A stretch of 64,000 nt of DNA from Trileptium ribeirensis (taxonomy: Eukaryota > Nematoda > Enoplea > Enoplida > Thoracostomopsidae), in the NCBI GenBank assembly GCA_030248225.1, contig JASANE010020372.1, forward strand, positions 1 through 64,000. Reading direction: 5' to 3'. Of the stretch, positions 20,131 through 56,893 are shown piece by piece. Position numbers and translations under genes: made by a program. The notes beneath the pieces were generated by a model. It saw only the letters and a list, made by a program, of their open reading frames with translations. It did not search any database and was not told where the DNA came from. Position 1 is the stretch's first letter, and each line of letters opens with the position of its first letter.

Positions 20131-20447
20131 AATTGGCCTTTGATGCTCTCAGTCTCAGGTATCCCATTTGGTAATTTTGTTCTGCAATTTTCGACCTATT
20201 AAAGTTGCAACTTTTACTTCTGTCTCGTTCAGCTACGAGAAATGTTTGTGACAATTACTTTAAGCTGTTACCTTAGCTGTATCTTACTGCTGTTAGTCAG
20301 GTCTGTGCTCGCGCTTTTCGCCTAGGACTACTCTTCTCTATGCGCCTCTCAATAGACCGTGCCTATCGACCTTACTTTCTTACATGCCCTTATTCATTTT
20401 CTCGCTTGCGTTAGCTGCTAACGCTACGCTTTCCTATTCGCAATCGC
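20131..20447. other. Non-coding 3' flank of retroelement ORFs
   Basis: No coding frame was found. It should hold the 3' untranslated region of the minus-strand retroelement and possibly part of a 3' LTR. No match to the 36.4-38.1 kb side was found by eye. Confidence 0.35.
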
Positions 20448-21685
20448 TCAGGGTGCCAAGCGTTTCAATTCAGCGTCGCGGACCAAATGGCTTACCCACT
20501 CGCGTAAATTGCGGCGGCAATAATTTGACACCATCGGCTCGCGGAACTGAGGTCGCTCGCGCCATGCCATGTGTGGCTCGTCTCGTCCCCAATCGTCAGG
20601 TGTATTGAATGCAACGGGCCATGTTGGAATAACCACGTTGTGAAGCGTGTTGTACCGCTGACGATGGTTGATCAGGATCTGTTTCAGATCGGCCGTCCAG
20701 GACGCTGCATCCTGGTTAGCGGCGACCCACCGCGGAATAGGAGGCGTAATGATGATTGTTGTTGTTGGGGCTACACGTTTCGACAGCACTCCTATGTGGC
20801 GTTTGACCTTTTTAAATGCCGCATTCGGGTTCGTCGCATGGCGTGCTCCAAAGGCGCTTGGCGATATATATAGTTGTAGCCACCTAGCAGGATGATGCAA
20901 TTGAGTTGCGGCGTAACAATGGCGTTGGCGGCTTGGACGAGTCGGGCCAGGCTTGTGTCCGGCCATCCGTTAACCAGCCACTTGTCATCGGGCATCTCTA
21001 GTAGCGGCAGGACTAACGCATCTCCTAAGATGGCTGTTCGGGGCCATCTCACATTACCGGTGGCGCGAAATTCGCGCACCTCTTCGAGCAAGCGTCCCAT
21101 GATATTATGGCAGCGTCCGGGCGCCTCATTGTTTTGTAATTGCTGGTTGGAGCGTCCGACACCCCAAAAAGCGTCCGTGGAGGCTTCGAGCAGTTGTCGA
21201 TCCTCGGTAAGTTGGAGTACGTGTGCGTACTCCGGAATGGCGAATTTCACGAGTAGGATGGGGCGCATGATGTGCTCCAGCAAAGGTTTGAGACGAGCAT
21301 TGGTGACATAGTTTATTAGTTCGTCTTTCAGCACCCGCGCTCGTGATTTGATCTGCAGGGGTATGTCGGTTGAGTCTAAGAGTTCACGAGCGGCGTCGTG
21401 GTGTTCCAGGGGTGCCAGCACCTGGACGTGATAATGTCGCTCCACGGTGTTGGCAAGGACGCCATCGTTGCGGAACGGAGCCGCCGTTTCGTGCATATTC
21501 GATAGCTCCGGCCAGTCTGCGCCATGCGACAGGAACGCCGCATATGGCTTGTTCCAATCCACTCGATAGACTGGAATCGGTGGCAACTGGAATAAGGCAG
21601 TTTCCGGCGGAGCGTACGGTCCGACCGCTGGTAATAGTCCGCCGGATTTTCTGTTTGGCGTCACGTCAACATTGCTGGTGCTCAT
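20448..21685 (-). pseudogene. NADAR-SGNH protein 2 (paralog, one frameshift)
   Basis: Starts at a true ATG (21,685) directly after an AG. The first 273 codons run to about 20,866, where the frame shifts; the homologous C-terminus continues in another frame to the stop at 20,448, giving about 410 residues in all. Residues about 50-205 align with the NADAR family: the HY of the EHY motif (ERHYH, 82-86), FWGVG (173-177) and GRLLEEVR (197-204). The family glutamate just before HY is Arg here. Residues about 213-273 plus the post-shift part resemble an SGNH fold: GDA (221-223) in place of GDS, and GGYNY (268-272) in place of G-x-N-D. It is a paralog of the next upstream ORF. It may be a degenerate copy or a divergent non-catalytic partner. 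The frameshift could also be an assembly error. Confidence 0.72.
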
Positions 21686-22056
21686 CTATAAAGGGAATTT
21701 AATTAAGTACAATTGTCAATTATTAATTGCCGCAACGCTTCACGTTATGTACGCTCTTTCTGCGAGAATCGTATATCCCTAACCTAGTACGCCTGTTTCA
21801 GCTGAATTTGGTCTGCACGGTAACTCGACTTTCTATCATCTCCGGATGATTTAAAAATTTTGTATGCTTCCCTTAGAAGATTTGTTCTTTCCCCTCTCCC
21901 ACCCCTTTTGTGGGGTTGCTTTACCAAGTTGTGGGACCCTGTCCACCTTTTACGACTCACTGTCAAGATAGTTTTAATATTCTTCTCTCGGCAGTGGTCG
22001 TTCTTTCAGTCGCCTGACGATGTCTGCGCTTTGGAGATTTTGCTCTATCCAAGCGA
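21686..22056. other. Inter-ORF spacer with polypurine run
   Basis: 371 bp between the two NADAR-SGNH ORFs. On the coding (minus) strand, 21,911-21,886 is almost pure purine. An AT-rich stretch with CCCTTTATAG immediately precedes the downstream ATG and resembles a splice acceptor. There is no other ORF. Confidence 0.45.
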
Positions 22057-23211
22057 CTAGTTCGTGATGCCACGCTGGGGCCACAACCGGTTTGTTCCAA
22101 CGTCGCCGGTCCTCCCCTGGTTGAACGGTCCGACCGCGTCCCAGACTTCGGCCTCCATTAGCGGCATTGGCCATCGCGGCATCACTACGCTACGGAGCGA
22201 CTGGTGGGTGACGGTGAAGCCCATCTTGCGTGTTCGGATCTGCCGTCCCCAATTGTCGCCAGTGTAGTTGTTGGCGTCCCAGTGGGGAGCGGGCGACGGG
22301 ACGTAGATGGTCGCTACCTCCCGGATGCGTCGATCCAGTACCCCCATATGGCGCTTGACGCGTTTAAAGTATGCGGCGGGCGAGAAGGCTTTCCTGGGGT
22401 CCAGCCAGACGTCGTCGTAGCCGCCTAAGACGAAGATGCAGTCTGTTTGCGGCGTTAGAAATGTGTTGGCCCATTGTAGTAGCGCCACCATCGTCAACCC
22501 AGGATAGGCAAAGACGAGACAGTTGTGCTCGTCGGCCACTTCGAGTAGCGGCAGGGCCTGCTCATCGCCGACGATGATTACACGGGGCCAGCGAACAAAG
22601 CCGTCACGGTTGAACGCCCGGATTTCTTCGAGCAACCGGCCATTGACGTTATGGCATATTGTCCGGTAGTTGCTGCATTGGATCGGGGGCATGCCCGTGC
22701 CCCAGAAATTATCCCACGGGTCGTTGAGGAGTTGCCGGCTGCCGGTTCTCTCCAGTTCCTCAGCATATTCGTCGATGCTGAACTTCGCCAGTAGGATTGG
22801 CCGCAGCAGGTGTGCTCGATACGACATGTGCCAACGTTGAGCGCTGAGCGGGAGTTGTCGTTGCAGGGCGATGCTGCGAAGTTGTAATTCCGCTGGGGAA
22901 ATGTCCATCTCGCACAACTGCTCGGCCTCCTTCTCGTATCGCAGGAGCACCAGGGCACCAAGATGATAGTGCTCGGCCGCGCTGGAGAGGCGTCGGCCAT
23001 CGTGTTCGAAACGGTCCTCCATGCGATATTCGTTGGACAGTCGACTCCATCGCCGGCTATCGAGCGAAACAACCTCCCAACGTTCCTCCTGGTCCAGCTG
23101 ATATTGTGGCACACGGGGAAATGCGTGCCTGTCGATCGCCACTGGTGCGTGCCGCACGCTCTTTGCGATCAGACGGGCATTGATACTGTTTGTGCTGTGG
23201 GCTCGACGCAT
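22057..23211 (-). CDS. NADAR-SGNH protein 1 (uninterrupted)
   Basis: An intact 384-codon ORF from the first ATG (23,211); the frame is open ten codons upstream without an ATG. Residues about 46-200 show NADAR hallmarks in order: an LSN element (58-60), EHYH (80-83) with the family glutamate kept, a hydrophobic LLRPILLAKF helix (135-144), FWGTG (169-173) and GRLLEEIR (191-198). NADAR proteins include YbiA and the DarG1 antitoxins that remove ADP-ribose from guanine bases. Residues about 208-345 resemble an SGNH/GDSL fold: a hydrophobic strand then GDE (215-217) where GDS is expected, a PG turn (237-238), GGYDD (263-267) and a late APHWD. The serine nucleophile is missing. It lies downstream of integrase and a disordered ORF, with an acceptor-like TTACAG just before the ATG. 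Fold assignment is by motif; the role in ADP-ribosyl removal is inference. Confidence 0.78.
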   Translation of the reverse strand: MRRAHSTNSINARLIAKSVRHAPVAIDRHAFPRVPQYQLDQEERWEVVSLDSRRWSRLSNEYRMEDRFEHDGRRLSSAAEHYHLGALVLLRYEKEAEQLCEMDISPAELQLRSIALQRQLPLSAQRWHMSYRAHLLRPILLAKFSIDEYAEELERTGSRQLLNDPWDNFWGTGMPPIQCSNYRTICHNVNGRLLEEIRAFNRDGFVRWPRVIIVGDEQALPLLEVADEHNCLVFAYPGLTMVALLQWANTFLTPQTDCIFVLGGYDDVWLDPRKAFSPAAYFKRVKRHMGVLDRRIREVATIYVPSPAPHWDANNYTGDNWGRQIRTRKMGFTVTHQSLRSVVMPRWPMPLMEAEVWDAVGPFNQGRTGDVGTNRLWPQRGITN

Positions 23212-23356
23212 CTGTAATGTATATATTGGGAATAAGTCCAAATGTAAAGATAGTTTTGTTTACTAGGAAATATATTTGCTTAGACCCCCCTTTCTAAACC
23301 CCTTTTCTATGACTGTTTGTTTGCTTGGTTAGAGGTACGTGCTAGTATGGGTTGAA
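23212..23356. promoter_or_regulatory. Inter-ORF junction with polypurine runs and acceptor-like site
   Basis: On the coding (minus) strand the run at 23,308-23,284 reads AGAAAAGGGG, then TTT, then AGAAAGGGGGG. This is followed by AT-rich sequence and TTACAG immediately before the NADAR-SGNH 1 start. It may be an internal polypurine tract and a subgenomic splice acceptor; both are inferred from sequence alone. Confidence 0.35.
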
Positions 23357-24934
23357 TTAGTCCACTTGTAAGTCTGGATCGTCTGAGTCAGATTCCTCGT
23401 ACGGTGGTGTTCGGGGCATTCGTTTTCGCCAAGCTGCAGGGTGCAGCTCTTGGCTAGAAGGATACCTCGAGAATGAGGTAGGTGGTAGGGTTCCGCCTAA
23501 GGGGTGTTCGCCCATCGGAAATTGTTGTGGTATTGAGATTGGAGTGGTGACACCGGTGGACTGTGTGCGTGTAGTAGGAGCGAGTCTAGTAGAAGTTCCT
23601 GCCGTTTCGCTATCAGTTACAGCTGGTTCCTGGAAAGTTACACGCTTGGACCAACGTAGGGCGTCTCCTACTTCCTCGTCCGATACTGCGCCATATGGTC
23701 TAAAGACCCGGTCCCTAGCCTGGCGATGAAGGAGGTGTCTAGTCGGTGCTGTTACCTGGGCAGTGCTGAGTCGTATTATTCCTGAGGAGGTAGTAATGGG
23801 AGTAGTGGGATGTACTAGTTCGGTGATAGTTACTGTGGACGGTCCTGGTCGTTCAGTACTAGCAAACTGAATGGTTGAACCTTCTCGTGTCGATGGGACT
23901 TGTTTCCGTTGGGAGGCCCGTCCAACAAGGCCCTTTCCTCGGTCTTCTGGCGGTGCTCGTGTGCGAGGAGGAGTACTCAAGGTCACTGGACGACCAGTTC
24001 CTCTTCGAGGCGTTGGCGCTTCACTACTTGATCCTGCAAGTGTGAATTCGCTTAATGAGCCAGAGGTTCCTGGTTGTGTTCTAGAGTCACTGCTTGATGT
24101 TTCCTGTCCTGCCTGACCGAGCCGCTCGGCGGAATATGGTTCCTGCGATGTTTGGCTGGTCAGTTCGTCGTCTGCCTCAGCTGCTCTCACGTCCACGGTT
24201 GTACCTTCTCCAGACGTTTCCGACAAATAGCTGGACATAGGCGACCCTGGAGGTGGCTGAGTGACAGCCGCCTCACGAAAGACATAATGGTGGGGAGACA
24301 TAGGTCTGTCGGCCGCTGCTGGCGGAGCGCTATAGGGACGCATTGTTGTATAGTCCCCCACAGTTTGAGTTGCCATCTCCATTGGTATTCGTAGCCGTGA
24401 CGCCATAATATGTTCAGCTGGTCGCGATTGAAATAATGGATGGTCCTGAGCAGCGAGCATGATTGCGTAACGTAGATCTCCGGAGGTGTATGGTCCAGGT
24501 ACGACGATTCCCCCTGAAGCTCCTCGTGGTGTTGTAGACTGCGTAATGTCCGCTGGGTAGAAGTGTTGTCCTTCGAGTATTCCAACACCTACAGTCGGTA
24601 CGCCGAATGGGACTTCCTCACTGGTAGCCACTATTCTTTCCATCGTGGTTACCGGCAGAGTGTGTTGTCCGTACTCCACTTGCGTGTCTCGGCTACCAGG
24701 TTCTGGTATGTATGAAAAGGCCTCTCGGCTGGTAACCTGTTCCTGCGATATTGGTGACCAAGATGGTTCTATTTCTCTATCACGATCAGTCAGTGGAATC
24801 CGATTCCTGACCGTCCTTGGATTTTGCGGTTCGTAGTCGTCTGTCCGATACTCAATGTGTTCCACTGCCGCTTGCTCGGCCTCGATTTCTGCGTATGTCC
24901 GGCGGTAGAAGTTGGAATCATTGGGGTCACCCAT
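23357..24934 (-). CDS. Ser/Thr/Pro-rich 525-residue ORF of the retroelement, function unknown
   Basis: An intact ORF from an ATG at 24,934 to a TAA/TAG-class stop at 23,357. The product is hydrophilic and Ser/Thr/Pro/Gln-rich, with no signal peptide or membrane segment. The only more ordered stretch is around residues 115-190 (Gly/Pro then an aliphatic helix-like segment). The tail is acidic (S-D-S-D-D region, last 15 residues). It follows integrase by 134 bp and precedes the NADAR-SGNH pair by 145 bp. No family is recognised. Low complexity suggests an intrinsically disordered adaptor or nucleoprotein. That a 525-codon frame stays open in an otherwise broken element argues it is a genuine gene. 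Confidence 0.65.
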   Translation of the reverse strand: MGDPNDSNFYRRTYAEIEAEQAAVEHIEYRTDDYEPQNPRTVRNRIPLTDRDREIEPSWSPISQEQVTSREAFSYIPEPGSRDTQVEYGQHTLPVTTMERIVATSEEVPFGVPTVGVGILEGQHFYPADITQSTTPRGASGGIVVPGPYTSGDLRYAIMLAAQDHPLFQSRPAEHIMASRLRIPMEMATQTVGDYTTMRPYSAPPAAADRPMSPHHYVFREAAVTQPPPGSPMSSYLSETSGEGTTVDVRAAEADDELTSQTSQEPYSAERLGQAGQETSSSDSRTQPGTSGSLSEFTLAGSSSEAPTPRRGTGRPVTLSTPPRTRAPPEDRGKGLVGRASQRKQVPSTREGSTIQFASTERPGPSTVTITELVHPTTPITTSSGIIRLSTAQVTAPTRHLLHRQARDRVFRPYGAVSDEEVGDALRWSKRVTFQEPAVTDSETAGTSTRLAPTTRTQSTGVTTPISIPQQFPMGEHPLGGTLPPTSFSRYPSSQELHPAAWRKRMPRTPPYEESDSDDPDLQVD

Positions 24935-25068: not shown

Positions 25069-25784
25069 TTAACCCCTTTCTAGAACGGAAGCGTGTACTT
25101 GGCCTAACCAGTCTCCTACGTTGGGTACCGGATCTAGTGCTCTAAAACACGGCTTAGTTCTATTAAGGTGTACCACATGCGCCATAACTTCTGGATTAGA
25201 ATGCATTCTTACTCGCATGCATGGCGGGGTGATCCCTAGTATTTCGTATGGTCCGCACCACCGAGGCGTGAGTTTCCTAGATGTTCCTGGCGTAGTATCA
25301 TGCCTATAAACCCAGACTAATTCGCCTGTTTGATAGCGTGGTTCGCGAGTTCGCCTATTGTACCTTAGCCGATTTACTTCCTGGGCTGCTCTCATTGATT
25401 GGTATGCGCGTTCCCTAATAGAAGCCATCCAGCGCTGCGCGTTAGCCCTATAGGAGTGAGCTCCAGTGTATCCTGTGGCTGCACTATGCGTGTCGTATTC
25501 TCCGAGTAACCTGGGATAAAATCCATGCATTAGCAAAAAGCGGTGGGTACTTTGTTGCTGTGTGTACCGAAGAATTGTAGGCCATTATACAAAATGGTAA
25601 TGATACTTCCCAGGAGTGATGATCATCTTGCGGTACACTTACTCTTAATAGATATAATAATGTTCTATTGAATCTTTAGATCTCACCATTTGCCTGAGGG
25701 TGATATGCTAGACTCATGTGCCGAAATATCTGCATTTCTTGGCACAGGTTTTCAAACATATGTGCGGTGAAAGCACCTCTTCTA
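25069..25784 (-). pseudogene. Integrase, C-terminal half (second Asp, catalytic Glu position, GPY domain)
   Basis: Continues the integrase after a one-base frameshift near 25,785. The segment up to about 25,690 holds the SDR motif with the second catalytic Asp and the HPQANGE stretch. The codon where the third acidic residue of the D,D-35-E triad is expected (before RFNRTL, about 25,673) is TAA. The 155-codon open frame from 25,536 to 25,069 carries the C-terminal domain with a GPY-type motif (TPRWCGPYEI), typical of Ty3/Gypsy integrases. The product inserts element cDNA into the host genome; this copy cannot make an active enzyme without correction. Confidence 0.85.
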
Positions 25785-27227
25785 TCAGAATATGGGAGCT
25801 CCGTACTTATTGACTACCTCATACAAAAAGACATGAGCGGCGTAGTGGGCATCCTGGTGCCTTATTGCCACTGCTACTGCAAATTTGGTGAACTGCTCTA
25901 TGAATGCAATAACATAGCGGTTGCTTGCTTGCGACTTAACCTGAATGTCGAGTATGTCTACGAATACACGATACATTGGTTGATTTGTCAACGGAACCCT
26001 GCCCAATCCGGTGGTTATCCGAGAGATCGGGTCCTTCGCGGATTGGCACAGAGTGCATCGCCTGATCCATTGTTGTGCGTGTTCTGACATACCCTTCCAA
26101 TAGTTAAATTGTTTCAATTTTGCTATTAACCGATCGCGGCCAGGGTGTCCTCCATATAAAGTATTATGTTCATGTTTGAGTATTTGTTGTACGAGCGTAA
26201 TAGGGACGCACAGTTTATAATTTATGTCCCCGGGTTGTAACGGCTGCATGTATAATATTTTAGTGTCCTGAACTAGTTCGAAATAATGAGCTCGCATTTC
26301 TATTCTCAAGGCACCTACTTCGGCTTTAGGCCGTGTTTTATTGTATAGATACCACCATATTGGACCCAATTCTGGGTCATTCCTTCGGATGTACGGCATG
26401 AGCCGTACTAAATTAAAATCTGGGAGGTCTGAAAAGAATGGTAAATATATGCTTTCGTGGGTGTCTTGTGCGTCCTCGATCTTGACTGTTGGTAATATTT
26501 CAGTTTCGTAATGCATCATTAATTTCACGAGCCTATCAAATTCCTGTTCTGTTGGTAGTGTGGTAGCTCTTAGTCCTACGGTTTCTAACTCGGGTCGATG
26601 TGGCCTTTTAGATCCTCGAGCCTGAGCTCCGACTCCAGAATCTGAGATAGTTGTAGTGTGAACCGACATTACTGGTGTTTCCCCCGGATCCATCCGGATT
26701 GGAATTGCGCTTAGCGTGGCTGCCTGTTGAGTTAGCGTTGCTGGGGGTACTGTAGTTATTTGCGTGTCGGGGACTAGGTGCGATGGGATTGCTTCAGGGT
26801 TTGGCTGGCCTGGGGGAGCTACTGGGCTTCCCGTTATAGGGTTTGGCGCGCCCGTTGCGAGCGGTGCTACGGTACGTACGGGATACGGCGGGTGCGATTG
26901 GTCCCATGCTGCGCAGGTCGTTGGTGGGCGAGGTCCGGTGGGTCGTCCTCGACTCATCATTAAAATTTCGTCGGTGTCTCCCTGTTCTTCACTTATCGAC
27001 GGGTCGTATCTAGGATCCCGTGACAAAGCATCAGCGTTGCCGTTTTCCTTACCTGGTCTATATAGTATTTCGAATCCCCCGAATTCAAGCAGTAGTTCAC
27101 TGCGCCACCGGGATAAGCGTGAGTTCCTGGGTGGCTTATCAAACAAAGCCTTAAGCAGCTTATGGTCAGTTTCTACGTGGAACTTGTGGCCTACGAGGTA
27201 ATAGTGTAAAAGTGTAGCGCTGCCCAT
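25785..27227 (-). pseudogene. RNase H C-terminus and integrase N-terminal half
   Basis: A 480-codon open frame. It begins within RNase H (TDHKLL with a catalytic Asp near residue 21, then NADALSRDP with the last conserved Asp near 64). After a Pro/Thr-rich linker of about 200 residues comes the integrase zinc-binding HHCC domain (about 345-395: H-x-H, GGHPG, then CTLC). The start of the catalytic core follows, with the first Asp in FVDILD (about 424). It ends at a frameshift. The upstream RNase H portion (27,228 to about 27,388) lies in other frames, so two indels flank it. The Pro/Thr linker between RNase H and integrase is unusually long for gypsy elements. Confidence 0.88.
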
Positions 27228-27300: not shown

Positions 27301-28520
27301 CTATGGGTTTGAGGCCTTGCCTAGTTTTCTGCGAGAGTACTGCGCCCATTGCGTATCCTGAAGCGTCCGTTTGTAAAATGAAGGGCGTGTGAAATCGGGA
27401 TGTATTAATACGGGTGCATCTAGTAGCGCTTGTTTTAATTTCTTGAAGGCGTCTTCACGCCTAGGTGTCCATTTGAATTCGGTATCCTTGCGTTTCCACT
27501 CATTGAGTGGTTCGCATATATCTGAGTAGTTTGGTATAAATTTGCGGTAGTACCCTACTAGTCCCAGGAAAGTTTGAAGCTGCTTCAGTGTTTCCAGACG
27601 TTTGAATTCCTCGATTTCTATTGCCTTTTCTGGGTCTGGTTTCACGCCTACTGTAGTAATTATGTGTCCTAAGTATGTTAAACTGCCCCAGCCGAAGTGG
27701 CATTTCGATGGTTTCAGTTTTAAATTGGCTCTGCGGAAACGGTCGAAAACTCTAATTAGATCAGTTAGATGATCCTCGAACGTTGGTGAAAACACTAGTA
27801 TGTCATCTATGTAGATTAAACATTTTTCCCACTCTAACCCTTTTAAAATCATGGACAAGCAACGTTGAAAAGCCCCCGGAGATGAATTTAATCCGAACGG
27901 TAGAACATTGTATTCGTACTGTCCATGAACTGTTACAAAGGATGTCTTATCTTTTGTTTCTGGGTCCAACTCTAGTTGCCAGAAGCCCTTATTTAGATCT
28001 AAACTAGACATTAGTTTGGTATTTCGGAGACATCCTAAAATATCATCTATTCTAGGTAATGGATATGCGTCCTGCTCTGCCACTGTGTTCACCTTCCGAA
28101 AGTCCGCACAGAGTCGGAGTGAGCCGTCACTCTTGGTCACATATACTATCGGTGATCCCCAAGGTGAACTTGATGGTGATATTAGTCCAGCATCTAGGAT
28201 ACTATTTAGTTCCTCCCTGAGCGGTTCACGCAAAGAATGTGTTAGTCGATACGGTGCTTGCTTAAGTGGCTTAGCATCTCCGGTCTCTATGCGGTGTCTA
28301 TGTTCGGTGTAGCGTCCTAAATCGAAATCGTGCGTGCTGAACACATCTGCGTTCTCAGCGATCGCGGTTTTCAACTGTTTCAAATCAAACGGGGACAATA
28401 AAGTCTTATCAAAATCTATTTTACTCAAGACCGTTTGAGCTCTTTCACGGCCAATCGACCTTTTTCCTGCTTCGATATGTTGAATAATTCTTTCGGGGTG
28501 TGTGATGATGTTATTTAATT
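27301..28520 (-). pseudogene. Reverse transcriptase (Ty3/Gypsy type)
   Basis: The annotated frame is open from about 28,520 without an ATG; a TTG lies at 28,428. Counting from that TTG, conserved RT blocks are in order: LREELNSIL and SPWGSPIVYV (about 70-97), LRLCADFRKVN (104-114), SSLDLNKGFWQ with a catalytic Asp (144), LPFGL (176-180), YIDD active site (206-209), LGHI and the connection FLGLVGYYRKFIPNY. A one-base frameshift near 27,388 moves the continuing RNase H start (QTDASG-type motif) out of frame. RT copies the element RNA to DNA. It is in a different frame from the protease just upstream. Confidence 0.92.
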
Positions 28521-28540: not shown

Positions 28541-29269
28541 TCATATCAAATCAGATTTTTGTTTGTATCCTTCAGGAACCTCCATGTGACCTATTGTTTG
28601 TCCGGCATAAATAGTGACCGGTGTGTTTCCGAAATTGATTACTGCGATTGGCATTGGTCTTTGGCTCCTTAGTACTGATGCGTGAGCCATCGCAATATCT
28701 ACCATTTCCGGTGCAGGCACGAATAATGCCGGTCCTACGCCTGTTTCGGCTATTTCGAGAATGGCATTAATAAATGTTTCAGTGTTTGGTTCTATAGTAG
28801 CGAGTTTCCTACACATTACTGCTATCAGTGGTGGATCGTAGCGTTCTAGGCCTGCAAAAGGTGTTTTAGCCTCTTCCTCATCTACTGCTATTTCTAAACA
28901 ACGTTCCTTAAAATTTATAATGCATTTTGGTAATTGAGACATAAAATTTGTTCCTATAATGCAGTGATAAGGTGCTGTTTTAGTGACAAAGAATTCTGCT
29001 TGTACCTTTATGGACCCGATCGACAAAGGTACACTTATGCTACCGTCTAATGCTAATTCTTGTTTGGCGGCGGATACTATCCTAGTGGAATCGTCAGGGC
29101 GCGGTTGGAGACCCAGTTTATTCACCAGGTACTGTGATACGATGGAAACGTCCGCGCCGGTATCTATTAGGGTAAGTACCGGTGTACGGTACACAAAGGC
29201 ATTGATTAACAAGGGTGCGTCCGTGTGATGTATTGTGTTGACCTGTCGGTGGTAGGCTACTGTGCGATG
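28541..29269 (-). CDS. Retropepsin-type aspartic protease
   Basis: The frame is open from the codon after the Env TGA (29,269) to a TGA at 28,541. The active-site motif LIDTGADVS (catalytic Asp 17 counted from the TTG at 29,212) is followed by the second hallmark IIGTNF about 70 residues later, as in one-domain retroviral proteases. Roughly 100 further residues form the linker found before gypsy RT, including an NTPVTIYAGQ segment. There is no ATG near the start, so it probably matures from a polyprotein. It is in the same frame as the Env tail upstream. Confidence 0.88.
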   Translation of the reverse strand, partial: HRTVAYHRQVNTIHHTDAPLLINAFVYRTPVLTLIDTGADVSIVSQYLVNKLGLQPRPDDSTRIVSAAKQELALDGSISVPLSIGSIKVQAEFFVTKTAPYHCIIGTNFMSQLPKCIINFKERCLEIAVDEEEAKTPFAGLERYDPPLIAVMCRKLATIEPNTETFINAILEIAETGVGPALFVPAPEMVDIAMAHASVLRSQRPMPIAVINFGNTPVTIYAGQTIGHMEVPEGYKQKSDLI

Positions 29270-31335
29270 TCACCTACGTTGGGACCTCTCAGATACGGCG
29301 AATAGTTCCGTGGGCTCTACCAGAACAACACTTTCGTCCTCGTTAGTAGCATTTATTCGAGCTGCGCGACGAGGACTCGTTGTACATAATTCGAGGTGTT
29401 CGGTGGAAGCAGCTGGGGCTGAAACAGTTCGTCGAGGCGCGTTCGTAGTGCCGTACTCATTGTCCGTTTTAACATGCAATTCGGGTCGCCTTAGTTCCTC
29501 CCGACCACATGGTCGTTGTTGCCACCAGTGCTGTAGGCGCCCTTTTATGCATTTAAGACAGAACCCAGCTTTCTTCCTAAAGTAATTCACGGCCCCTACT
29601 CCAGCTACTGCTAGCACGATGAGCATCAATAGGTAAGGAGCGACGCCGGTGGTAGTGATATATGGGAAGTCGATTACCCTTTTTAACTGCTCGTCTGCCA
29701 TTTGCTGTACTTGCAGATTCGTCGCTTTGGCATGTTCCAATGAGCTCCAAGCAATCGGTTTGAGCGGTATTTCCAGAAAGTCGTGGACAGTGATGTTGGG
29801 TCCAATGTGGACTGTGACTTCCTGCGCGCTAGCGTGCTAGCCAGCATAAGTCGCCCGACCACGAGCTGGGTATAGTTACTGTGCGACAGCCACAAAACCC
29901 CGTTGTCAGCAATGTCAATTGTCTCTCCTCGGGTAACGTGATCAAGATGTTTCTTCTTGGAGACGACGGCCTTGCGTTCAGCAATTCGGATTAAGACTCC
30001 TTGTGCTGTGGTGTAGACGTCGGTACGGTTAGCCATTGGCCCGACCAATGCACTGTTCCTACAAAGTTGACGAGCTTCATCCGGAGCGCCCTCGCCCATG
30101 ATGATCCAGTCTAAACAGCGCGATGTGTGGTCTGTTGCTAATGCGTGGATCTCGCAGAATGCAATGCCTGGTCGCGTGTTACATGTATGCAATTTAAGTA
30201 CTTCGTACCGTGCTCGTTCAACCCGCGTAGCGTAATCAGGCAATGGTAGTTTCATGTGGGCGCTGCGCTCTGGGATGTTCCAGCCAACGTTATATATTCT
30301 AAAGTAGGGTCGGACGTCGTGCGACGTAACTAAGGGAACTCGCAATATAAATGCAAATTTAAATGATCCTAGATCGATATGTACTGGATATATTTGCCCG
30401 AATTGGTAAGCCAGCGCAGGTTCGCGGATTAGAATAGTCTGCGCTATCTGCGAGTTCTTTTGGAATAAGTTCTTGAGTTTGGATGCGTCCACTACTTTCG
30501 GTGATAGTTGACCGCTCATCATGGCTTCCATGACGGCGTCAACCGAAGATCTAAGGCTGGTGCGAAACGTATGGTTAACTAGCTCGCGGTGAACCTCAGT
30601 AACGTAGCGTTGCTCTTGACGTCTTACCTGATCGATCATAGAGACTACCTCTTGCATCTCATCATGCAAAAAGGAGTAAAGTTCCTTATTCGCGTGCGTT
30701 AGTTTCATGATAGCTCGCGAATTACCATAGGCGACATTATAGGTATTTCTCATTTCCTTAGAGAGCGCGAGTACCCGCTTATTTAAATCCTTAAGATGTA
30801 CCGCATTAGTGAACGCTACACCTACACCTAGAAAACCTGTTACTACACCTGCGGCTCCTGCTAACGCTGCGAAAAAAAGTTTCCTTCGGACCTTTGGTTC
30901 CTCACAAAGATGGGCATTCGCCTCGCAATATTCACGCATTAGTGCCATGTAATAGCTAGTGTCTAGTACACCTTGATAGGTGCTCCTTAAATCTCTCTCT
31001 AATTCTTGGAGTTTTTGTTGCAAATCCGGCATGGTAGTACAATTTTGGTTGGGGCAGCAGTTCCCCAAGCATGGTTTACCCCTGGGAGTGTATACATACC
31101 ACGCCATACCCGTTGCCTCTCTACTAAGTTGTAATCCATCTAAGGATAGCCGTAATATTATTGGTAAGAAGATGGAGTGCGAAGCAGTAATCACCAAGCC
31201 TTGTGGTTCGATCAGCGTGCCGACCTGTTGATTTACTATAGCTCCTAAGCGTGCGGCTTGGTCCGAAAAAGGCGTAGCGATGGCATGAGTCTGCCCGAGC
31301 TGGTGAAGGAATAGCATAGCTATTAGTAATCCCAT
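29270..31335 (-). pseudogene. F-type envelope glycoprotein (Env), one frameshift
   Basis: The first ATG is at 31,335. It is followed by a hydrophobic signal peptide (MGLLIAMLFL...), a Cys-rich stretch, then a basic cleavage-like site VRRK (about residues 149-152). Directly behind it is an Ala/Gly/Val-rich fusion-peptide-like segment and a heptad-rich helix, the layout of baculovirus F and errantivirus envelopes. Several N-x-S/T sites are present. A frameshift near 29,835 separates the ectodomain (to 29,683) from the C-terminal part in another frame. That part carries the membrane anchor (about 29,640-29,580) and a tail of about 105 residues ending at TGA 29,270. It mediates membrane fusion in relatives; this copy is broken. 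It is unusual in lying upstream of protease and RT. Confidence 0.85.
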
Positions 31336-31493
31336 TATTTTAGTTCCTTTGTTTAGCAATCCGACCGCAGCTTGTACTCTCTGTCCTATACCGTTCGAAG
31401 AAGACCGTACCGACCCGGTCGGTGATGTCTGGTTACTTCTATCAACGGTAATGTCGTGTTAATGGCTGACGTTTTCATCGCTCACGGAGAAAC

Positions 31494-33253: not shown

Positions 33254-34339
33254 CTACAAACGATAACCGCGGTTCCGGACCTGGTCGGATCCTACGGCTC
33301 CTACACTTAGAGACCGAACCCTGTTCGAATTTGGTCCTACACATAAATTATAATTTTGAACGGAGCTCGGGCTATCAGGACAGATCACTTCCCGACGCCT
33401 CCCTTCTCCTGGCCAGTGTCCTCTACGGTCTTCCCCGGCCTCTAAAGATACTAGGGTACACATACGCTTTCGAATTTTGAACGGAGTTAGGACAATCGGA
33501 CTGGCCCGTGTTCCGAAAGTCTCCATCGCACCTGACCAGTGTCCTTTACGGTCTTCCCCGGTGGGTTGAAAAGCTACAGGAGCCTCACACGGCCGCCCTA
33601 AATTGGTGGAAGTCAATTTAGTTAAGTTGGATGCATCCGCTAGGTTCCTTGGTTCATTTAGTTCCTTAGGTTCTTGGTTCTCTTCCATTAGGTTCCTCGG
33701 TATTCCGTTCCATCCATTAAGTTCCACTAGGTTAGGTTCCATTAGGTTCTCCACATCCGCTGGTTCATTAGGTTCACAATTAGGTTCCGCTAGGTTCACT
33801 ATTCCATCCGCTAGTTCTTCTGGTTCCGCTAGACACACACAATTTTGAATAAGGCTAGGACTTTCGTCTCCATCGCCCTCGACCATTAAATGGGCTTCAA
33901 GAAATTTCGCGGGTTCACCAGGTTGTACCGTGCCGGCGTTAGAGTTATTACCCGACACGCGACCCCTATTAATCGGCCCCCGGATTCCGAACGGCGTCTC
34001 TCTAGGTTCCAATCTATTAGGTTCCTTAGGTTCTCTATCCATTAGGTTCTTATGTTCAATCCGATATGCAGCCGCCTGAGATGGGTTACACGTGCCATCG
34101 TTTGGTTCATTGCTTGACACAGATGCCCTATTAATCGGCCCCCGAAGTCCGAACGGCCATCTCCCATATTTCTCACTCGGCATATCAGGATCATTAGGTT
34201 CCATTAGGTTCTCGGTTCCTGCTCCCCTCTCACTCCTCTGCTCGGTATCTCGGTACTCTTCATCTCTTCGTGCTGACTTCCTATCGGGATATACAAATAA
34301 GTTAGTTGGCCAACTAGTATTCACAGAGTCTCGGGTCAC
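33254..34339 (-). CDS. Repeat-rich retroelement ORF X, function unknown
   Basis: A 361-codon frame overlapping the end of the zinc-knuckle ORF by four bases (GTGA), one frame over; its first codon would be GTG, so expression by frameshift or re-initiation is more likely than an independent start. It contains internal repeats: PFG[LI]RGPINR twice, NLMEPN-like units many times, and GED[R]GHW twice. The DNA shows the matching TTAGGTTCC-type minisatellite (about 33,600-33,830). The product is hydrophilic and probably disordered. It has no known family. Confidence 0.5.
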   Translation of the reverse strand: MTRDSVNTSWPTNLFVYPDRKSARRDEEYRDTEQRSERGAGTENLMEPNDPDMPSEKYGRWPFGLRGPINRASVSSNEPNDGTCNPSQAAAYRIEHKNLMDREPKEPNRLEPRETPFGIRGPINRGRVSGNNSNAGTVQPGEPAKFLEAHLMVEGDGDESPSLIQNCVCLAEPEELADGIVNLAEPNCEPNEPADVENLMEPNLVELNGWNGIPRNLMEENQEPKELNEPRNLADASNLTKLTSTNLGRPCEAPVAFQPTGEDRKGHWSGAMETFGTRASPIVLTPFKIRKRMCTLVSLEAGEDRRGHWPGEGRRREVICPDSPSSVQNYNLCVGPNSNRVRSLSVGAVGSDQVRNRGYRL

Positions 34340-35445
34340 GCCCTGAGCGCCAGGGTTGGAGACAACAAAACCGAGCGCCGTGTGGGTTCAGTATTGTTTT
34401 GTGTTTTACCGTATCTGTATTCTCCATATTCAAGTGGTTCTCCTTCATATGTTTGGTTCACTTCGTTACCACTTTGCGAACCGGTCGCTTGTGACCATTC
34501 GCGTGGTGTGTCCCTATTTGTTTGCAGTGAGTTTACTTGGTATGAACCTGGTTCTGCTTCAATTTCGTTTGGATATTCATGCTCAATCTCAAAATTGGGG
34601 TCATCCGGCTCATAGGTTGTCTCATCTTCAGTGACCATCAGGTTAACTTGTGCCGAACGAGTACCTAAACCAGCTCCTGCGCGTTTCTCTAGCGTGGACA
34701 TTTCATGTCGCATGACATCTAAGCGGTGTGCTAGCTCAGGATCTACTGCTTTGGTCACTGACATTACGCCTGCATTACGACGGTCAGCTCGCTCGGTGTT
34801 ATTTATTGGTGCCTGCATAGGTCTAGTTCGAGGCACTGGTCCTAATTGATTTGAATTGTTCCAGCCGCTACTAGGCGTGCGCGGACGAAACGGTGCGGCT
34901 TCCGCCGACAGTGGTTGGGATGGTGCAGCATAGCGTCGTTCGTATGTTTGGTTATATCCATTATTTCGCTGGTCGTACCCATTGGCGCTACGTCCGCGAG
35001 ATCTATTATAATATTCGGTCTGACCGCCATTTCCATACGCGTTGTTGGTTACGGGCTCTGGGCGATAGTATCCTTGCTGCCCATAACCGGTGTATCTATG
35101 TTGGTTAGCCGTGTTGTTCCACTCATCGCGTCGTGAGTATCGTCCTTCACCTCTATGTTCAACTACCCGATAACGAGGACGATTGTTGTAATGCGGTGGT
35201 GGCCTAACATATTCAATAGCGGGCGGTGGCGGTGCATTGTACGTGTAATTAGGCGCTGCTCGCGTGGCTAAACGTGTATATTCATTTTGCAATGGATCGT
35301 ACACATCCATTCGGGAGTATGGGTATTCTCTGGCGAAGTGCCCTATATAGCCACATCGAAAGCATTGATTCCCTATTGGTGTTGCTGCTGGTATTGCGGT
35401 GGCGACTAGCGACGGTGCTCCATTATTTTGCATCATTGCATTTAG
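34336..35445 (-). CDS. Gag C-terminal part: zinc-knuckle (nucleocapsid-like) protein
   Basis: About 370 codons in the same frame as the capsid ORF, separated from it by a single TAG (35,446). Counting from the ATG at 35,436, a CCHC-type knuckle is at 25-38: C25, C28, H33, but the final Cys is Tyr38 (a TAC codon, one transition from TGC). The rest is rich in Arg/Asn/Tyr/Gly (about 60-190), fitting RNA binding, then an acidic C-terminus. It is expected to package element RNA. The missing fourth ligand suggests impaired zinc binding in this copy. Confidence 0.75.
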   Translation of the reverse strand, partial: LNAMMQNNGAPSLVATAIPAATPIGNQCFRCGYIGHFAREYPYSRMDVYDPLQNEYTRLATRAAPNYTYNAPPPPAIEYVRPPPHYNNRPRYRVVEHRGEGRYSRRDEWNNTANQHRYTGYGQQGYYRPEPVTNNAYGNGGQTEYYNRSRGRSANGYDQRNNGYNQTYERRYAAPSQPLSAEAAPFRPRTPSSGWNNSNQLGPVPRTRPMQAPINNTERADRRNAGVMSVTKAVDPELAHRLDVMRHEMSTLEKRAGAGLGTRSAQVNLMVTEDETTYEPDDPNFEIEHEYPNEIEAEPGSYQVNSLQTNRDTPREWSQATGSQSGNEVNQTYEGEPLEYGEYRYGKTQNNTEPTRRSVLLSPTLALRA

Positions 35446-36352
35446 CTAGTGTTGTTCCGTGCGCTTATCTAGCAGATCAATAAGCCGAGCGATGGTAGCA
35501 TCACTACCGCCTGTAGTGCACTTATTCTCATCTAAGGTCTCGCGGATCTGATCCACTAGTTGCGTGTTTTCAGCGCTTTGTGATATGCAGTTTACTGTCT
35601 TGGACCGGCTGCTTTTACGAACCGGTACTCCGATAACTTCCTTTTGGGACGCTATAATGGCGTCTTCTTTATACTTAAGCTTGTCCATCATATGTGTGAA
35701 GGACGGATAAGTCTTCCCTATTACGCCAGATTTTAGCTCTTTTCGCAGTCCTTGTCGCAGGAATTTTTGTAGTAACGCGTCACGTTGTTCGCCTTCAACC
35801 TCCGGGAATGCTTTGTCCGCTAGATTTTGAAGGTCTAGTCCGTACATAGCGACAGATTCCCGGTCCCCTTGTATGCGCATGCGTAACGTGATTAGTGCGT
35901 CTTCATCTCGCTGCGAGGAAGAGTACATGAAACCCATGTTATAGCAAAGGGCTTCATACGTTTGTTTGTGGCACTCCGGGAAACTCTCGTAAATTTTGAG
36001 TGCCTCACCTTTCAATACAGTCGATAAACAAATTAATTTCTGCTCCATCCATTCGCGTCCGTTAGGTTGTCATAGGTAGCTAGCCAGGCTTCGAAGTCCT
36101 GTCCGTCAGCCCCTGAAAACGGCGGAATGTCCCCCACTTGTATTATAGGCGCCGTAGTAGTTGTCTTTTGCGTTAGCTGCTGTAGGATTGCTACTAGTGG
36201 GTCTCCGTTTACGGTGGGACTTGGTCCATTTGTACTACCAGACGTAGTGGCTGTGCCACTTCCTATATTATTTTGTCCTAACGTGCCGCTAGTCGGCGTT
36301 CTATTCGCGCTCGCTGGTACTGAAATATTTTGAATCCGACTTTATTAGCAAT
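35446..36352 (-). pseudogene. Gag capsid-like protein (one frameshift near its middle)
   Basis: The 200-codon frame from 36,048 has the helical composition of the gypsy Gag capsid family (Retrotrans_gag type), e.g. GEALKIYESF and LRQGLRKEL. The N-terminal part lies one frame over, 36,352 to about 36,035, and includes PPFSG followed by the FEAWLATYDN helix expected at the capsid start. No ATG was found in that frame, so the true start is unknown or has mutated. It forms the particle core in relatives. It ends at TAG followed by CTA, after which the zinc-knuckle part continues in frame. Confidence 0.75.
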
Positions 36353-38410: not shown

Positions 38411-40370
38411 CTGGCTAAAACAGGAGCCTCGTATTTCTTTCGGGGGAGACCTGAACGCCAGTGAAGTTGGTTGAAAGGCTCATTCTCAGTTCCTAGTGTG
38501 GTGCTTATAGTTTAGTTCCAACACTTATAAATTTGGATTGAGGGTTCGACTTGAAAACCTTAGTAGTCTACTGTGTGTATTGGAAGACCTTATCGCCTGA
38601 ACAGGATTAAACACTCTAACACTTTATTTGATTAACGGCGGTTTATTGTACTCAAACGACAATCAAACTATACGAGTATATACATGACAAAGTTATATGG
38701 GTACCTCGCAGGGTACCCCATAGATACTCAACCGGTGATGTGAATCCTAGTTAGGCCCTATGAAGGGAATGTGAGAAATTCAATTCACCTTGCTCTTACA
38801 CTTTATGCCCCGGGGACCGTGTTACCCGCTTGACAGTACCCAGGTGTGAGCTTTCCTTGTCGACCTTTTGTCTGCTTCGCCTGTAAAATGTTCTGTGCTA
38901 TCATGGTCTGACACTCTCTGGCCGTTAGCCCCTTTTTACCCTGCATTTTATCCATGGGTTGTGCATTACACCGAGTCTGGGCGCCAGCTGCAGTCTACTC
39001 ACAGTGAAAGTTTATGATCAGAAATCTGCTTGCGTCGGGGTCGGGCTGAAATTGCGGGTCCTTGTCAAAAAGGGAAAGCGCTGCCGCGTCTCCCGAGTTT
39101 TGTTTGCCTTGTAATGATTCTCGAATTGATGATTCGACGTGAAAACAGGGCGCTATATCGAAACCCACCGTGTCTAAACGGTTTATTAGTCCGCGCCTAT
39201 AAATTTCCTTCACAGAAAAGTTTGGGGAAACAATTGCTTTGTGTACTTCTCAGGGCCGTCGCTCGGCTAACGGGTGCGAGCACGATAGTTTACTTAAAAT
39301 TTGACTCAGCTATGCGTTGCAGCTGACTGCGTCTCGTTTCCTTAATTTGGTGATGTGCTCCTCCGAGTGTCTTAGATTTAAGTGGTGGTCCGCAGTCATT
39401 TACAAGCATGAATAGGGATTGCGCCGCCGCGCTCTCGGCGAAATGTTTAGTTTCCGAATCAAAAGAAAACAGTGTCGATTGGAGTTAGAGAACACTTCGG
39501 ATACCCCTGTTTGATTAGAACAATAAGTTTGCCAAAGCCATGAAAAGTGTGGAAAATAACGCACGAAGGTCCTGATACGTCACTCCCTGTGGAGCAGCTG
39601 CATCGACCCCTCGGTAGTTATTTCACTGTTTAAAAATGCGTGACAGAGTGCTCTACCGTGTCCAAACGGCCTGAGACCCGTCCATTTTTTGAAGCTAGTC
39701 AAATTCATTTTTTGACGAATAAAACAACGCTGAGGGCGGGATCTCAATTTTTGGAACTAGCGTCAGGGGTTCCGGCTTTTTTGTATCCTTTGAATACTCA
39801 CAGCGTGCAAATGACTACGTGCGCCTCGAGCGGGACTCTCGCTCCGTTACCCCAAAACTCGGGTCTATAAGTCGTGTGACCTGGAGTTGTTCTTATAGAT
39901 TTTCCTCTGACTTAGACTCGACTCATGTTGCTACTTCGAAATCGAGCGCGCTTGGAGCAAGAGTCGAAATTGGCTCCATTGTCTCTTGAAGGTCATTTGA
40001 AAATTTAGAAATGTTTTATAATGCCAATTTGCGGCGGGGTCCTAACTGTTTGATGTAAATTATAAAAGTCATCTAGCGTGTCTAAACGGCCAGGAAGACT
40101 GGTTTTGGACGACCTAATAGAGAACCGATTAAATGAAACGCTCAGGGACAACCTTGATGGGATAGCCTAGCACGGATTCTTACTTATACTCTATTATCCT
40201 CTGCCTTAGCGCCTGCCTCCAGGTCAACACGCTTGTAACTGTTTCTTGCTTTAATTGCCTTACCCCTCCCATGTCCCCATGTCCTTCCCCCTTCCCCGTG
40301 TGTATTCCGGATTCCCCTTCGCCCGTACACATCACTAAATAGAAATTTCGCCCCCGGGTCTAAAACTAAA
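38411..40370. other. No supported gene; 14-base motif repeated
   Basis: Less AT-rich than the flanking window. GTGTC[TC]AAACGG occurs near 39,167, 39,657 and 40,078, at intervals of about 0.4-0.5 kb, hinting at a decayed long-period repeat. A short inverted pair GGGTACC...GGGTACC lies near 38,700-38,720. Confidence 0.4.
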
Positions 40371-40846
40371 AATGGCGACCCGGCGAGCGGGGAACCAGTC
40401 GAGACTCAGAAATTTGCGGACGATTTTAGCTTGTGATTTTCTTAATTTTGTCGGGGCTTCACTTACAGGTGCGCGGGGCATCCTTTGGACGCAACAACAC
40501 CCGCAAGGGCAGCCCATACCAGCTTATTTTGAAAGGTAGAAAGTCGCCAGGGGGGGCTCCGTCCTGTTTCTACACAGTAGGAGCCGCCCCTGGGAAAAGG
40601 AAAACAAAAACCGCAAAAGCAAACAAGAAAACCGAAACCTTTAAAATTTCGAAAGTCATAAGGGCGACAACCGCCCTACAAAAGAAAGCAGACCACTTGG
40701 TCTGCGCTAAACTCGACTGGCTCCGACGCTGCGCCGAGCCATTTCCTTTTATATCAGACTTGTGCCCCCTTCCCTCCCAGACCGGTTTTAACGTTTTGAA
40801 AACCCTGCAGCGCTTCGTGAACTGCTATAAACAGAAGATAAACTAA
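40371..40846 (+). other. Possible small coding region, unidentified
   Basis: Two overlapping plus-strand frames: a 55-codon ORF with a good start context (AAAAATGGCG, 40,371) and a 137-codon frame (40,433-40,846) that is Lys/Arg-rich in the middle. A CTTACAG acceptor-like site sits near 40,460. Neither matches a family I recognise. It could be remnants of another mobile element. Confidence 0.25.
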
Positions 40847-42512
40847 AAGAAACATTGATATAATTAACATTGGATCTCACGGTCAATCGCTCACTCACTG
40901 TATCTCCTGCTATCAATATATATATATATATCTGCTATCAACATACATCTATACATCAGTGCATATGTCCGCGGGGCACGACGACAACTTCGGCGTAAAC
41001 AACCTAAACCTAGCGCTGGTAGGCGCGAGGCTTTTAAAAGAAAAACTTATACAAGCGCCCAGGGCGCTTAAATTTTATTTGAGATTTTCTATATTATTTA
41101 AGTTTTCAGGTTATCTAGGGATCGCAGGCGGCCGTGGGTGGGACCAGGTTCACGCCCTGGCTGGTCGCCTACTGATAAAAGTGGAATTTTAAGTGTAGAA
41201 CCAATACGTGGCCTGTTAGAGGCCGTTTTGTACGCAAGATGCGATAGAATTTTATGTCCCAAGTGGGTTATTAGGGTCCTCCGCGGACCGGTAAGGTCAG
41301 GTGGCCTCGGTTTCCGATTAATCAGATAGGGCGGGACCCCATGGTGGTGTGGAGCTCGAAAAATCGGGGAGTTTTGGTTCTTTAGGTTGAGAATTAAGAC
41401 TTTGAAAATTGGGTGTTTAAACGCCTACTTAGGGGTCCCTTAGTACTTACCGGTAGGAACCAGGTTTGCCCGAATGCGAAATTTTGAAGCCCTGGAGAAC
41501 CCCTGTTTCTGAAGTGATAAACCTACCTGGCGTCAAGTGTCAGAAAATATAAAATCTTGCTTTTAAGTAGACCCTATAAAATTAACGTTTTAGGCAAATT
41601 CTATCATTTTTGTTTGCCCGTAGATTTGATTTCTCCGTTCATTCCATGATTCAGTTGTGCCAAAACTGCATGCCAGAACAGGTCAAGTTCGAGAACGAAA
41701 TTCGAGTGTCAAGAAGATTTTCCGTTTGCATTTGATAAAGATTTTGCACAATGCCCCGACCCATCCTGACACGCAGTACGAAGGTGCATTTCATAACTCC
41801 TCAAATCAAATATCAAATCTCATTAGCAACGATAAAATTATATGTCACCGCGGATGCGCACCGGGATCGACCTTGGGGCCCCGACTCAATGTTAATGAAA
41901 GCGAAATCACAAAAGTTTCGCCCCCATGTCCCCGGTCCATCCGAATGCGCAGCCACTTTCCACAATACATTATTGACACATACGATATCATTAAATTCGT
42001 TTAGGGCCGACCGGATACCTGTAGTTAGGGTTACCATTTTGCTATATCCCATGCGGAAAATGATCCTGCCCGCGCATGCCAGGCAGATGGAGCGTGACGA
42101 TACAAAAGTTTACAGCCAAGATATAACTTTTTTATTTTATAGCAACGCTGAATATTACACAATATAATATCGGAATCACGCTCCACCGGTATCCGGTCGC
42201 CCATCGCGTCCATTTTCTCCCCTTTTTGACACTACTTGGAAGATTCTCTCCATTTTAGATATCCTGTTAAAATCCCTGAATTTTCGGGCTGTTACATATA
42301 TACGTATATAATACCTACTTATATTACTCTGAAATTTAATTAATTTATCTCTACATAAAATATATTTTAAAATATATACACATATATATTTGTGTTTTTC
42401 TTCGTTGTGTTTCTGCGTTGTCGCTCTTGTGTCCTCGTCGTCGCTTCCGGCTTCGATCGTCAATTCGACGACGACACGCCGACTACTGAATGAACGACAA
42501 AGGTGACCAAAA
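40847..42512. other. No supported gene; short TA microsatellite
   Basis: Contains a (TA)n run at about 40,915-40,931. The frames present on both strands are short and low in recognisable motifs. Confidence 0.4.
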
Positions 42513-56288: not shown

Positions 56289-56893
56289 GCGATCTATTAC
56301 AAAATGTATGCTATCTGGCACAAAAGCAACACAGGTCCGCCGGTAAAAATAAGAGTTACCGATATATTCACTTGTTACTATGCCCGTTATTGAGAGATCA
56401 TAATACTGGGCGACCTATTACAGAATGTATGCTATCTGGCACAAAAGCAACACAGGTCCGCCGGTAAAAATAAGAGTTACCGATATATTCACTTGTTACT
56501 ATGCCCGTTATTGAGAGATCATAATACTGGGCGACCTATTACAGAATGTATGCTATCTGGCACAAAAGCAACACAGGTCCGCCGGTAAAAATAAGAGTTA
56601 CCGATATATTCACTTGTTACTATGCCCGTTATTGAGAGATCATAATACTGGGCGACCTATTACAGAATGTATGCTATCTGGCACAAAAGCAACACAGGTC
56701 CGCCGGTAAAAATAAGAGTTACCGATATATTCACTTGTTACTATGCCCGTTATTGAGAGATCATAATACTGGGCGACCTATTACAGAATGTATGCTATCT
56801 GGCACAAAAGCAACACAGGTCCGCCGGTAAAAATAAGAGTTACCGATATATTCACTTGTTACTATGCCCGTTATTGAGAGATCATAATACTGA
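56289..56893. repeat. 121-bp satellite, five copies
   Basis: Units start at 56,289, 56,410, 56,531, 56,652 and 56,773 (GCGACCTATTACAGAATG). Copies 2-5 appear identical by eye and the first has a few differences, which indicates very recent amplification. No coding frame is kept. Confidence 0.95.

Follow-up and report, generated by a model that had tools for sequence, protein, structure and literature searches.

NADAR domains have already been reported in retrotransposons: Gypsy families of Ectocarpus (e.g. Gypsy-12_Ec32) carry a YbiA-type NADAR domain in Pol, whose role was called unclear, and Tx1 long interspersed nuclear elements (LINEs) of Crassostrea gigas encode NADAR domains in open reading frame (ORF) 1, described only as divergent hits (PMC12477816). 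In bdelloid rotifers, Vesta long terminal repeat (LTR) elements contain a GDSL/SGNH-type ORF3 downstream of pol (PMC5408684), while NADARs of RNA and DNA viruses have been proposed to counter ADP-ribose-based defence (PMC9503650). Here we describe a 64-kb stretch of the genome of the nematode Trileptium ribeirensis (hereafter the window), in which one large LTR element copy carries two adjacent ORFs, A and B, each with a NADAR-like half. The element resembles the Ectocarpus families in being an LTR/Gypsy retrotransposon with an acquired NADAR, but differs in that its NADARs are encoded by two separate ORFs 3' of pol, both of which also contain a second domain and have altered active sites (PMC12477816). 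It shares with oyster Tx1 a NADAR encoded by a retrotransposon, although Tx1 is a non-LTR element with its NADAR at ORF1 (PMC12477816), and it shares with Vesta an extra enzymatic-looking ORF downstream of pol (PMC5408684). Viral NADARs, unlike A and B, stand alone or in RNA-virus polyproteins, and the words retrotransposon and retroelement are absent from the available main text of the report that describes them (PMC9503650).

The initial annotation of this locus, made from the letters alone, had pointed to GDSL-type ORFs reported in bdelloid LTR elements, and knew of no NADAR combination in LTR elements. The latter now has to be narrowed: NADAR in retrotransposons is in print (PMC12477816), whereas the present arrangement is not. 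A tandem NADAR gene pair 3' of pol is not described in the accessible parts of the open-licence PubMed Central literature found on NADAR/YbiA, and NADAR is not mentioned alongside the Vesta GDSL ORFs in the available portion of PMC5408684, so a tandem, diverged NADAR pair in this position appears to be new. As far as it was accessible, the same literature reports no tested function for the NADAR domains of eukaryotic mobile elements.

The central proposal of the initial annotation, an adjacent pair of paralogous NADAR ORFs carried 3' of the integrase by a gag-env-pol retroelement, was borne out, and the same neighbours were found in many other copies. The copy in the window lies on the minus strand from ~42.3 to ~20.1 kb, in the order 5' LTR, gag, env-like region, protease, reverse transcriptase (RT), RNase H, integrase, a Pro/Ser/Thr-rich tail, ORF A and ORF B. 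A (~420 amino acids) and B (~413–445 amino acids) are paralogues, with 34% identity in the window. Compared with the Pfam NADAR profile (PF08719, cut-off 35.1 bits), B scored well above the cut-off (50.2 bits) and A below it (25.6 bits), so that the curated cut-off was passed by B only. We also assembled a set of 11 A/B proteins (window A plus five A and five B from five other copies); scanned singly, nine of these gave a NADAR match with E ≤ 10, the best having E = 2.7e-14. In the PDB, a profile built from all 11 had a single hit at E ≤ 1, namely 8bau, a NADAR protein (E = 2.7e-4), and the alignment spanned the active-site motifs. The profile comparisons thus show a relationship of A and B to NADAR that goes further than chance or the reading of motifs, although window A taken singly falls under the curated cut-off. 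The motifs on which the initial annotation relied recur with small changes in 26 A and 18 B sequences: A has EHY (19) or EHF (7) and FWGTG (26/26), and B has E-x-HY (18/18) and FWGVG (16) or FWGIG (2). Both GRLLEE and an H-x-x-RPIL-x-x-KF segment are invariant across the 11-row A/B alignment, while the A protein of L060, a copy of a third subfamily, has GHLLCD instead of GRLLEE.

Copies of the element were sought in the window's own assembly (687 Mb, 20229 contigs). Scored places, which include the window copy, were the best 105 of 2350 candidates for A (106 rows, from which C19454:19795-19923, a short piece of an already listed copy, was dropped for linkage), the best 132 of 2415 for B and the best 109 of 6598 for RT. 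A listed A and/or B was found downstream and on the same strand at 57 of the 109 listed RT places, with both present at 20; since only the best-scored places are listed, 57 is a lower bound. Spacing was nearly constant, at 4.06–4.47 kb from RT to A in 36 of 38 linked pairs and 5.62–5.88 kb from RT to B in 39 of 39, and within 12 kb of the 109 listed RT places no listed A or B was found upstream or on the opposite strand. A listed B followed 47 of the 105 listed A places, after a gap of 346–509 bp in 43 cases and of up to 2277 bp in the other four. Identity to the window separates two groups, at ~64–86% and 51–55% for A and ~74–91% and 65–68% for B. In all 20 copies fetched from these groups, A precedes either B or part of it (in L056 additional sequence separates the two), and the third subfamily has the same A-B order. 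A and B therefore belong to the retroelement family. The alternative of a host gene or separate insertion merely adjoining the element was rejected on the RT-A-B linkage, as more than 100 scored copies in three subfamilies show fixed spacing and strand behind RT wherever they are linked; we consider this alternative extremely improbable. Outside the source genome, no relatives were found at E ≤ 0.001, either of window ORF A (4893 candidates) or of the 11-row A/B alignment (best 8000 candidates scored). A search of IMG/VR gave 44 pattern matches, of which one contig was confirmed (L059), with 35% identity over query residues 100–199 only.

Selection was assessed in open reading frames only, as the ratio of non-synonymous to synonymous substitution rates (dN/dS, Nei-Gojobori). 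For A, 38 stretches (some from the same copy) yielded 29 with an open A of at least 384 amino acids, and 25 after four duplicates were dropped, window A included; for B, we used 16 frames of 350–465 amino acids, nine of which end at the locus end (one duplicate dropped). Within two subfamilies the median dN/dS was 0.11 (171 pairs) and 0.12 (15 pairs) for A and 0.04 (66 pairs) and 0.06 (6 pairs) for B, and the NADAR half and C-terminal half were alike in both proteins. Between groups the values were 0.17 and 0.11, resting on dS above 2. Both genes are thus under purifying selection in open copies. B is the more conserved protein: in nine shared copies dN was 0.094 for A and 0.023 for B at similar dS, meaning that the A protein evolves about four times faster. 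Decaying passengers without function would fit a window copy that is broken in A, B and pol and has no 3' LTR, as well as the stops carried by many listed A and B copies. This reading is nevertheless very unlikely, given a within-subfamily dN/dS of 0.03–0.12 (in copies chosen for being open) and an A that is still open in 29 of the 38 stretches.

Hydrolysis by NADARs has been tied to E43, K50 and E125 or their equivalents (P. nicotianae numbering); the K50 lysine is essential for efficient hydrolysis in the E. coli C7 NADAR, Arg can replace lysine in vitro, and D130 and W133 contact ADP-ribose in the P. nicotianae NADAR structure (PMC11543638). The K50 lysine is missing in all 26 A and all 18 B. 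Its place is taken by Leu in 25 A and Gly in one, B has Val/Leu around it in 18/18, and none of the A or B sequences has a basic residue there. E125 is missing in 26/26 A and kept in 18/18 B. The first Glu stands directly before H[YF] in 26/26 A and as Glu-x-HY in 18/18 B, so that all 44 sequences have a Glu beside HY/HF. Its position differs by one residue in the two proteins, and which of the two corresponds to the true E43 is uncertain to the same extent. The complete set of E43, K50 and E125 is accordingly found in neither A nor B. These readings took all 18 B sequences, two of which had been gap-only rows in an earlier alignment. The places that contact ADP-ribose fared differently: D130 and W133 are kept in 26/26 A, and W133 in 16/16 readable B. 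A further place, W89, was not used since it is alignment-dependent; the A proteins of subfamily 1 have a Trp one column away.

The initial annotation had suggested that these proteins could remove ADP-ribose from guanine. The NADAR match stands, but the proposed activity is weakened by the missing lysine in both proteins and the missing E125 in A. Catalytic counter-defence, in which A and/or B would strip ADP-ribose from guanine in element RNA or complementary DNA (cDNA), could draw on the B match above the curated cut-off and its retained E125, on the finding that NADARs tested were all active on guanine-ADP-ribose (PMC11125620), and on the presence of NADARs in other mobile elements of the same genome. 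Yet the lysine essential for efficient hydrolysis is missing, even allowing for the Arg that is tolerated in vitro, and we regard this alternative as unlikely. DarT1-associated NADAR antitoxins, members of the same superfamily, have an essential lysine (K95/K50) that is missing in A and B (PMC11543638). Stand-alone NADARs of Maverick-like DNA elements in the same genome keep E43 and K50 in five of five aligned, so that the canonical lysine does occur in NADARs from mobile elements other than the present family; three of these five lack E125, so variation at E125 alone is not telling. A profile match to NADAR, sound as it is here, should not be taken to mean an active ADP-ribosyl hydrolase, since every A and B sequence read lacks the known catalytic lysine.

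The C-terminal half of both proteins contains GD[E/A]..LP and GG[YHF] motifs, which we take to resemble blocks I and III of SGNH hydrolases. The place of the catalytic Ser in block I (GDS) reads GDE in 26/26 A and GDA in 18/18 B (blocks named as in PMC5408684). The SGNH half of the fusion proposed in the initial annotation fared poorly in profile searches. None of the 11 A/B proteins matched a Pfam GDSL/SGNH family at E ≤ 10, and none of 36 PF13472 places in the genome fell on a listed A or B place when compared by eye. Aligned to the TesA family with hhalign, the A/B alignment scored 13.6, whereas scores of 17.3 or higher were reached by at least 10 of the 100 column-shuffled controls, a comparison that is weak because both alignments had an effective number of sequences (Neff) below 2. 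A PDB profile search of the C-terminal halves gave one match at E ≤ 10, to an unrelated glycoside hydrolase (E = 0.55). The second domain can thus be called SGNH-like at the level of motifs. Vesta GDSL ORFs keep the invariant residues, unlike A and B, while GDSL derivatives in Athena-L elements did lose catalytic residues (PMC5408684).

Both genes have a distinctive signal at their start. [CT]AG (YAG) directly precedes the ATG in 25/25 A (window included) and in the 14/14 B whose start could be read (16 B pieces less two without one), mostly after a pyrimidine-rich stretch. For ATGs of these loci in general the figure is 66 of 2161 (3.1%). The third-subfamily copy L060 has YAG before both of its ORFs as well. 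The 100-base segment holding the A start is more conserved (identity 0.917) than its neighbours (0.782 and 0.754), and one donor-like hexamer is present in the 5' region of the window copy, at 37407. A YAG abutting each start codon is likely to be a 3' splice site, and A and B are probably spliced accessory genes. A is predicted to be soluble, as no 19-residue Kyte-Doolittle window exceeds 1.6 in 25/25 copies.

Strong constraint, catalytic-residue changes that differ between A and B, and the signs of accessory genes together favour two binding proteins, perhaps a pair. We tentatively propose, with slightly less than even confidence in the whole, that the provirus family makes a single polyprotein, which would extend from gag and the env-like region over protease, RT, RNase H and integrase to the Pro/Ser/Thr-rich tail, and that A and B would each be translated from their own spliced mRNA, with the 3' splice site abutting the start codon. 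Each protein, a NADAR-type half joined to a Rossmann-type, SGNH-like half, both conserved under strong selection with known catalytic residues altered, would act by recognition rather than classical hydrolysis: A and B, singly or paired, may bind ADP-ribose or ADP-ribosylated nucleic acid in the element ribonucleoprotein or in the host cell, and this binding could blunt NAD/ADP-ribose-based restriction. Judging from the residues, binding most likely fits A and B better than classical hydrolysis does.

The main rival is a structural or ribonucleoprotein role unrelated to ADP-ribose, in which A and B would be nucleic-acid-binding or virion proteins using the NADAR and SGNH-like folds as scaffolds. 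Some LINEs have esterase ORF1 proteins, to which such a role may be likened. In its favour are the catalytic residues altered in both halves under strong selection and the invariant H-x-x-RPIL-x-x-KF and GRLLEE segments, and the Athena-L derivatives offer a precedent for GDSL-type proteins without catalytic residues (PMC5408684). However, retention of the D130 and W133 places suggests that the ADP-ribose pocket matters, and we consider a purely structural role somewhat unlikely. A bolder reading is a two-protein ADP-ribose reader, in which A (first acid kept) and B (second acid kept) would be an obligate pair that acts on the element's RNA or cDNA when ADP-ribosylated, forming a composite site with new chemistry or shielding the mark against an NAD-based host defence. 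We think this improbable; if it were true, an NAD-based host defence against retroelements would exist and be countered. The occurrence of two diverged NADAR paralogues as separate accessory genes in three subfamilies, with more than 100 scored copies and under strong selection, makes it directly testable, through two small proteins, whether retroelements meet an ADP-ribose-based defence.

Several observations weigh against the proposal of recognition by spliced accessory proteins. In all 18 B, E125 is retained and a Glu lies no more than one residue from E43, and an Asp stands beside the E125 place in 20 of 26 A; residual or altered catalysis may therefore exist, and catalysis could also use groups other than the known residues. 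The SGNH-like half has no profile support. The YAG counts are drawn from related copies, and dN/dS taken from open copies only is biased towards constraint, its pairs sharing history, so that the values are descriptive. The maximum hydropathy of B is 1.44–1.76, just above 1.6 in at least one of 16 copies at a core-strand-like place; a membrane role is thus unlikely for both proteins, less firmly for B. Finally, no listed A or B accompanies 52 of the 109 listed RT places, which is uninformative rather than negative because only the best-scored A and B places were listed.

Table 1 Features of the element copy in the window.
Feature	Position	Strand	Evidence and remarks
5' LTR, ~3.7 kb	38600..42296	-	begins TGTAACAGCCC at 42296; AATAAA near 38630; 3' boundary approximate, tract end inferred
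gag region, two ORFs (35446-36048 and 34336-35436)	34336..36048	-	weak zinc knuckle: zf-CCHC 16.6 bits (cut-off 20.8)
env-like region between gag and protease	29270..31359	-	translation and hydropathy; env reading by eye
Aspartic protease	28541..29212	-	PF13975, E = 1.2e-10
Reverse transcriptase	27301..28428	-	PF00078, E = 9.9e-30
RNase H, H2C2 zinc finger, start of integrase core	25785..27227	-	PF17917, PF17921; PF00665 20 bits, below cut-off 32.6
Integrase C-terminal part	25069..25536	-	PF18697, E = 1.1e-6, 28.6 bits (cut-off 29.2); RWCGPYEI
Polyprotein C-terminal tail, Pro/Ser/Thr-rich (33%)	23357..24934	-	no Pfam match
3' splice-site-like stretch, ends ACAG abutting ORF A ATG	23212..23240	-	YAG-before-ATG pattern
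ORF A, NADAR-like N-terminal half and Rossmann/SGNH-like C-terminal half	22057..23211	-	PF08719, E = 1.6e-5
3' splice-site-like stretch, ends ATAG abutting ORF B ATG	21686..21714	-	window letters
ORF B first piece, with NADAR-like half and the beginning of the SGNH-like half	20792..21685	-	PF08719, E = 4.4e-13
ORF B second piece, other frame, C-terminal part	20448..20966	-	resembles B C-terminus in other copies
End of homology with other copies; 3' LTR absent in window copy	20133..20447	-	comparison with other copies

By its domain order, protease, RT, RNase H and integrase with an H2C2 finger and integrase core, as in Metaviridae (Ty3/gypsy), the element is assigned to the env-bearing Ty3/gypsy type. 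The integrase core is poorly scored in the window copy, which is broken at that place. RWCGPYEI in the C-terminal part of the integrase is what we take to be a GPY/F-like motif. The 5' LTR was recognised by its similarity to sequence that lies downstream of ORF B elsewhere in the family, with the match starting at 42297 in 12/12 subfamily-1 copies fetched; of the eight subfamily-2 copies, seven matched in short pieces only and one, L051 (contig end), did not match. The LTR starts with TG in the window and in the five copies whose boundary letters were read. Troyka, an unusual gypsy-like LTR superfamily with CG..CG termini, LTRs of 100–400 bp, no env and no GPY/F (PMC12440569), was considered and rejected on all four characters, given the TG start, the ~3.7-kb LTR, the env-like region and the GPY/F-like RWCGPYEI.

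The env-like region has a basic cleavage-like site and a fusion-peptide-like stretch, with a transmembrane-like stretch further on, and gave no significant Pfam match. At 15 of the 109 RT places (best 109 of 6598 candidates), RT lies within one uninterrupted frame that exceeds 4300 codons (longest 4346); by the arithmetic of lengths this would accommodate one polyprotein from gag through the Pro/Ser/Thr tail, so that the env-like region apparently sits inside the gag-pol frame. No report combining the term gag-env-pol with Gypsy was found in the open-licence PubMed Central literature. In the window the polyprotein region is spread over several frames and homology with other copies ends near 20133, before the 3' LTR. 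ORF A, mechanically listed as 22057-23241 with its likely ATG at 23211, leaves the frame of other copies near its C-terminus, and ORF B shifts frame in its second half.

The tail preceding A had a dN/dS of 0.14 (15 copies, window included), with a dS of 0.19 compared with 0.78 for A in the same five copies. Mean nucleotide identity among 20 subfamily-1 copies, in 100-base segments, was 0.81–0.93 in the tail, 0.74–0.87 in A and 0.81–0.87 in B. This contrast in dS and identity suggests partly separate genealogies for pol and for the A-B module, which may have arisen via exchange between elements. The identity values stand against B being the more conserved protein. On one contig (G000:C18907), two B places lie ~23 kb apart on one strand (260 and 23399). 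They flank an RT and an A, and the arrangement may represent two elements that share an LTR.

NADAR is abundant in the source genome, where 150 of 150 scored places were above the cut-off (best 150 of 2317 first-look candidates), and sits in at least two kinds of mobile element. In L004:1-3223 a stand-alone NADAR (139 bits), an A32-like packaging ATPase (26.3 bits) and a TATA-binding-protein match (PF00352, 112 bits) lie side by side; we labelled L004 a Maverick/polinton-like DNA element, and similar ORFs occur in L005–L008 (the Pfam scan of Maverick-like elements covered L001, L002 and L004). No report of NADAR together with Polinton was found in the open-licence PubMed Central literature.

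Rfam gave no match within the window. Outside the element, the window contains a second RT fragment at 61732-62799 on the minus strand (PF00078, E = 3e-12) and, at 14422-18335, a large near-palindrome whose 1.3-kb arms are 93% complementary and which encloses a 515–516-bp tandem duplication. Tandem arrays are present at 52020-52933, 53580-53991, 56288-56892 and 57708-58596, with units of ~119, 65–72, 121 and 443 bp, respectively.

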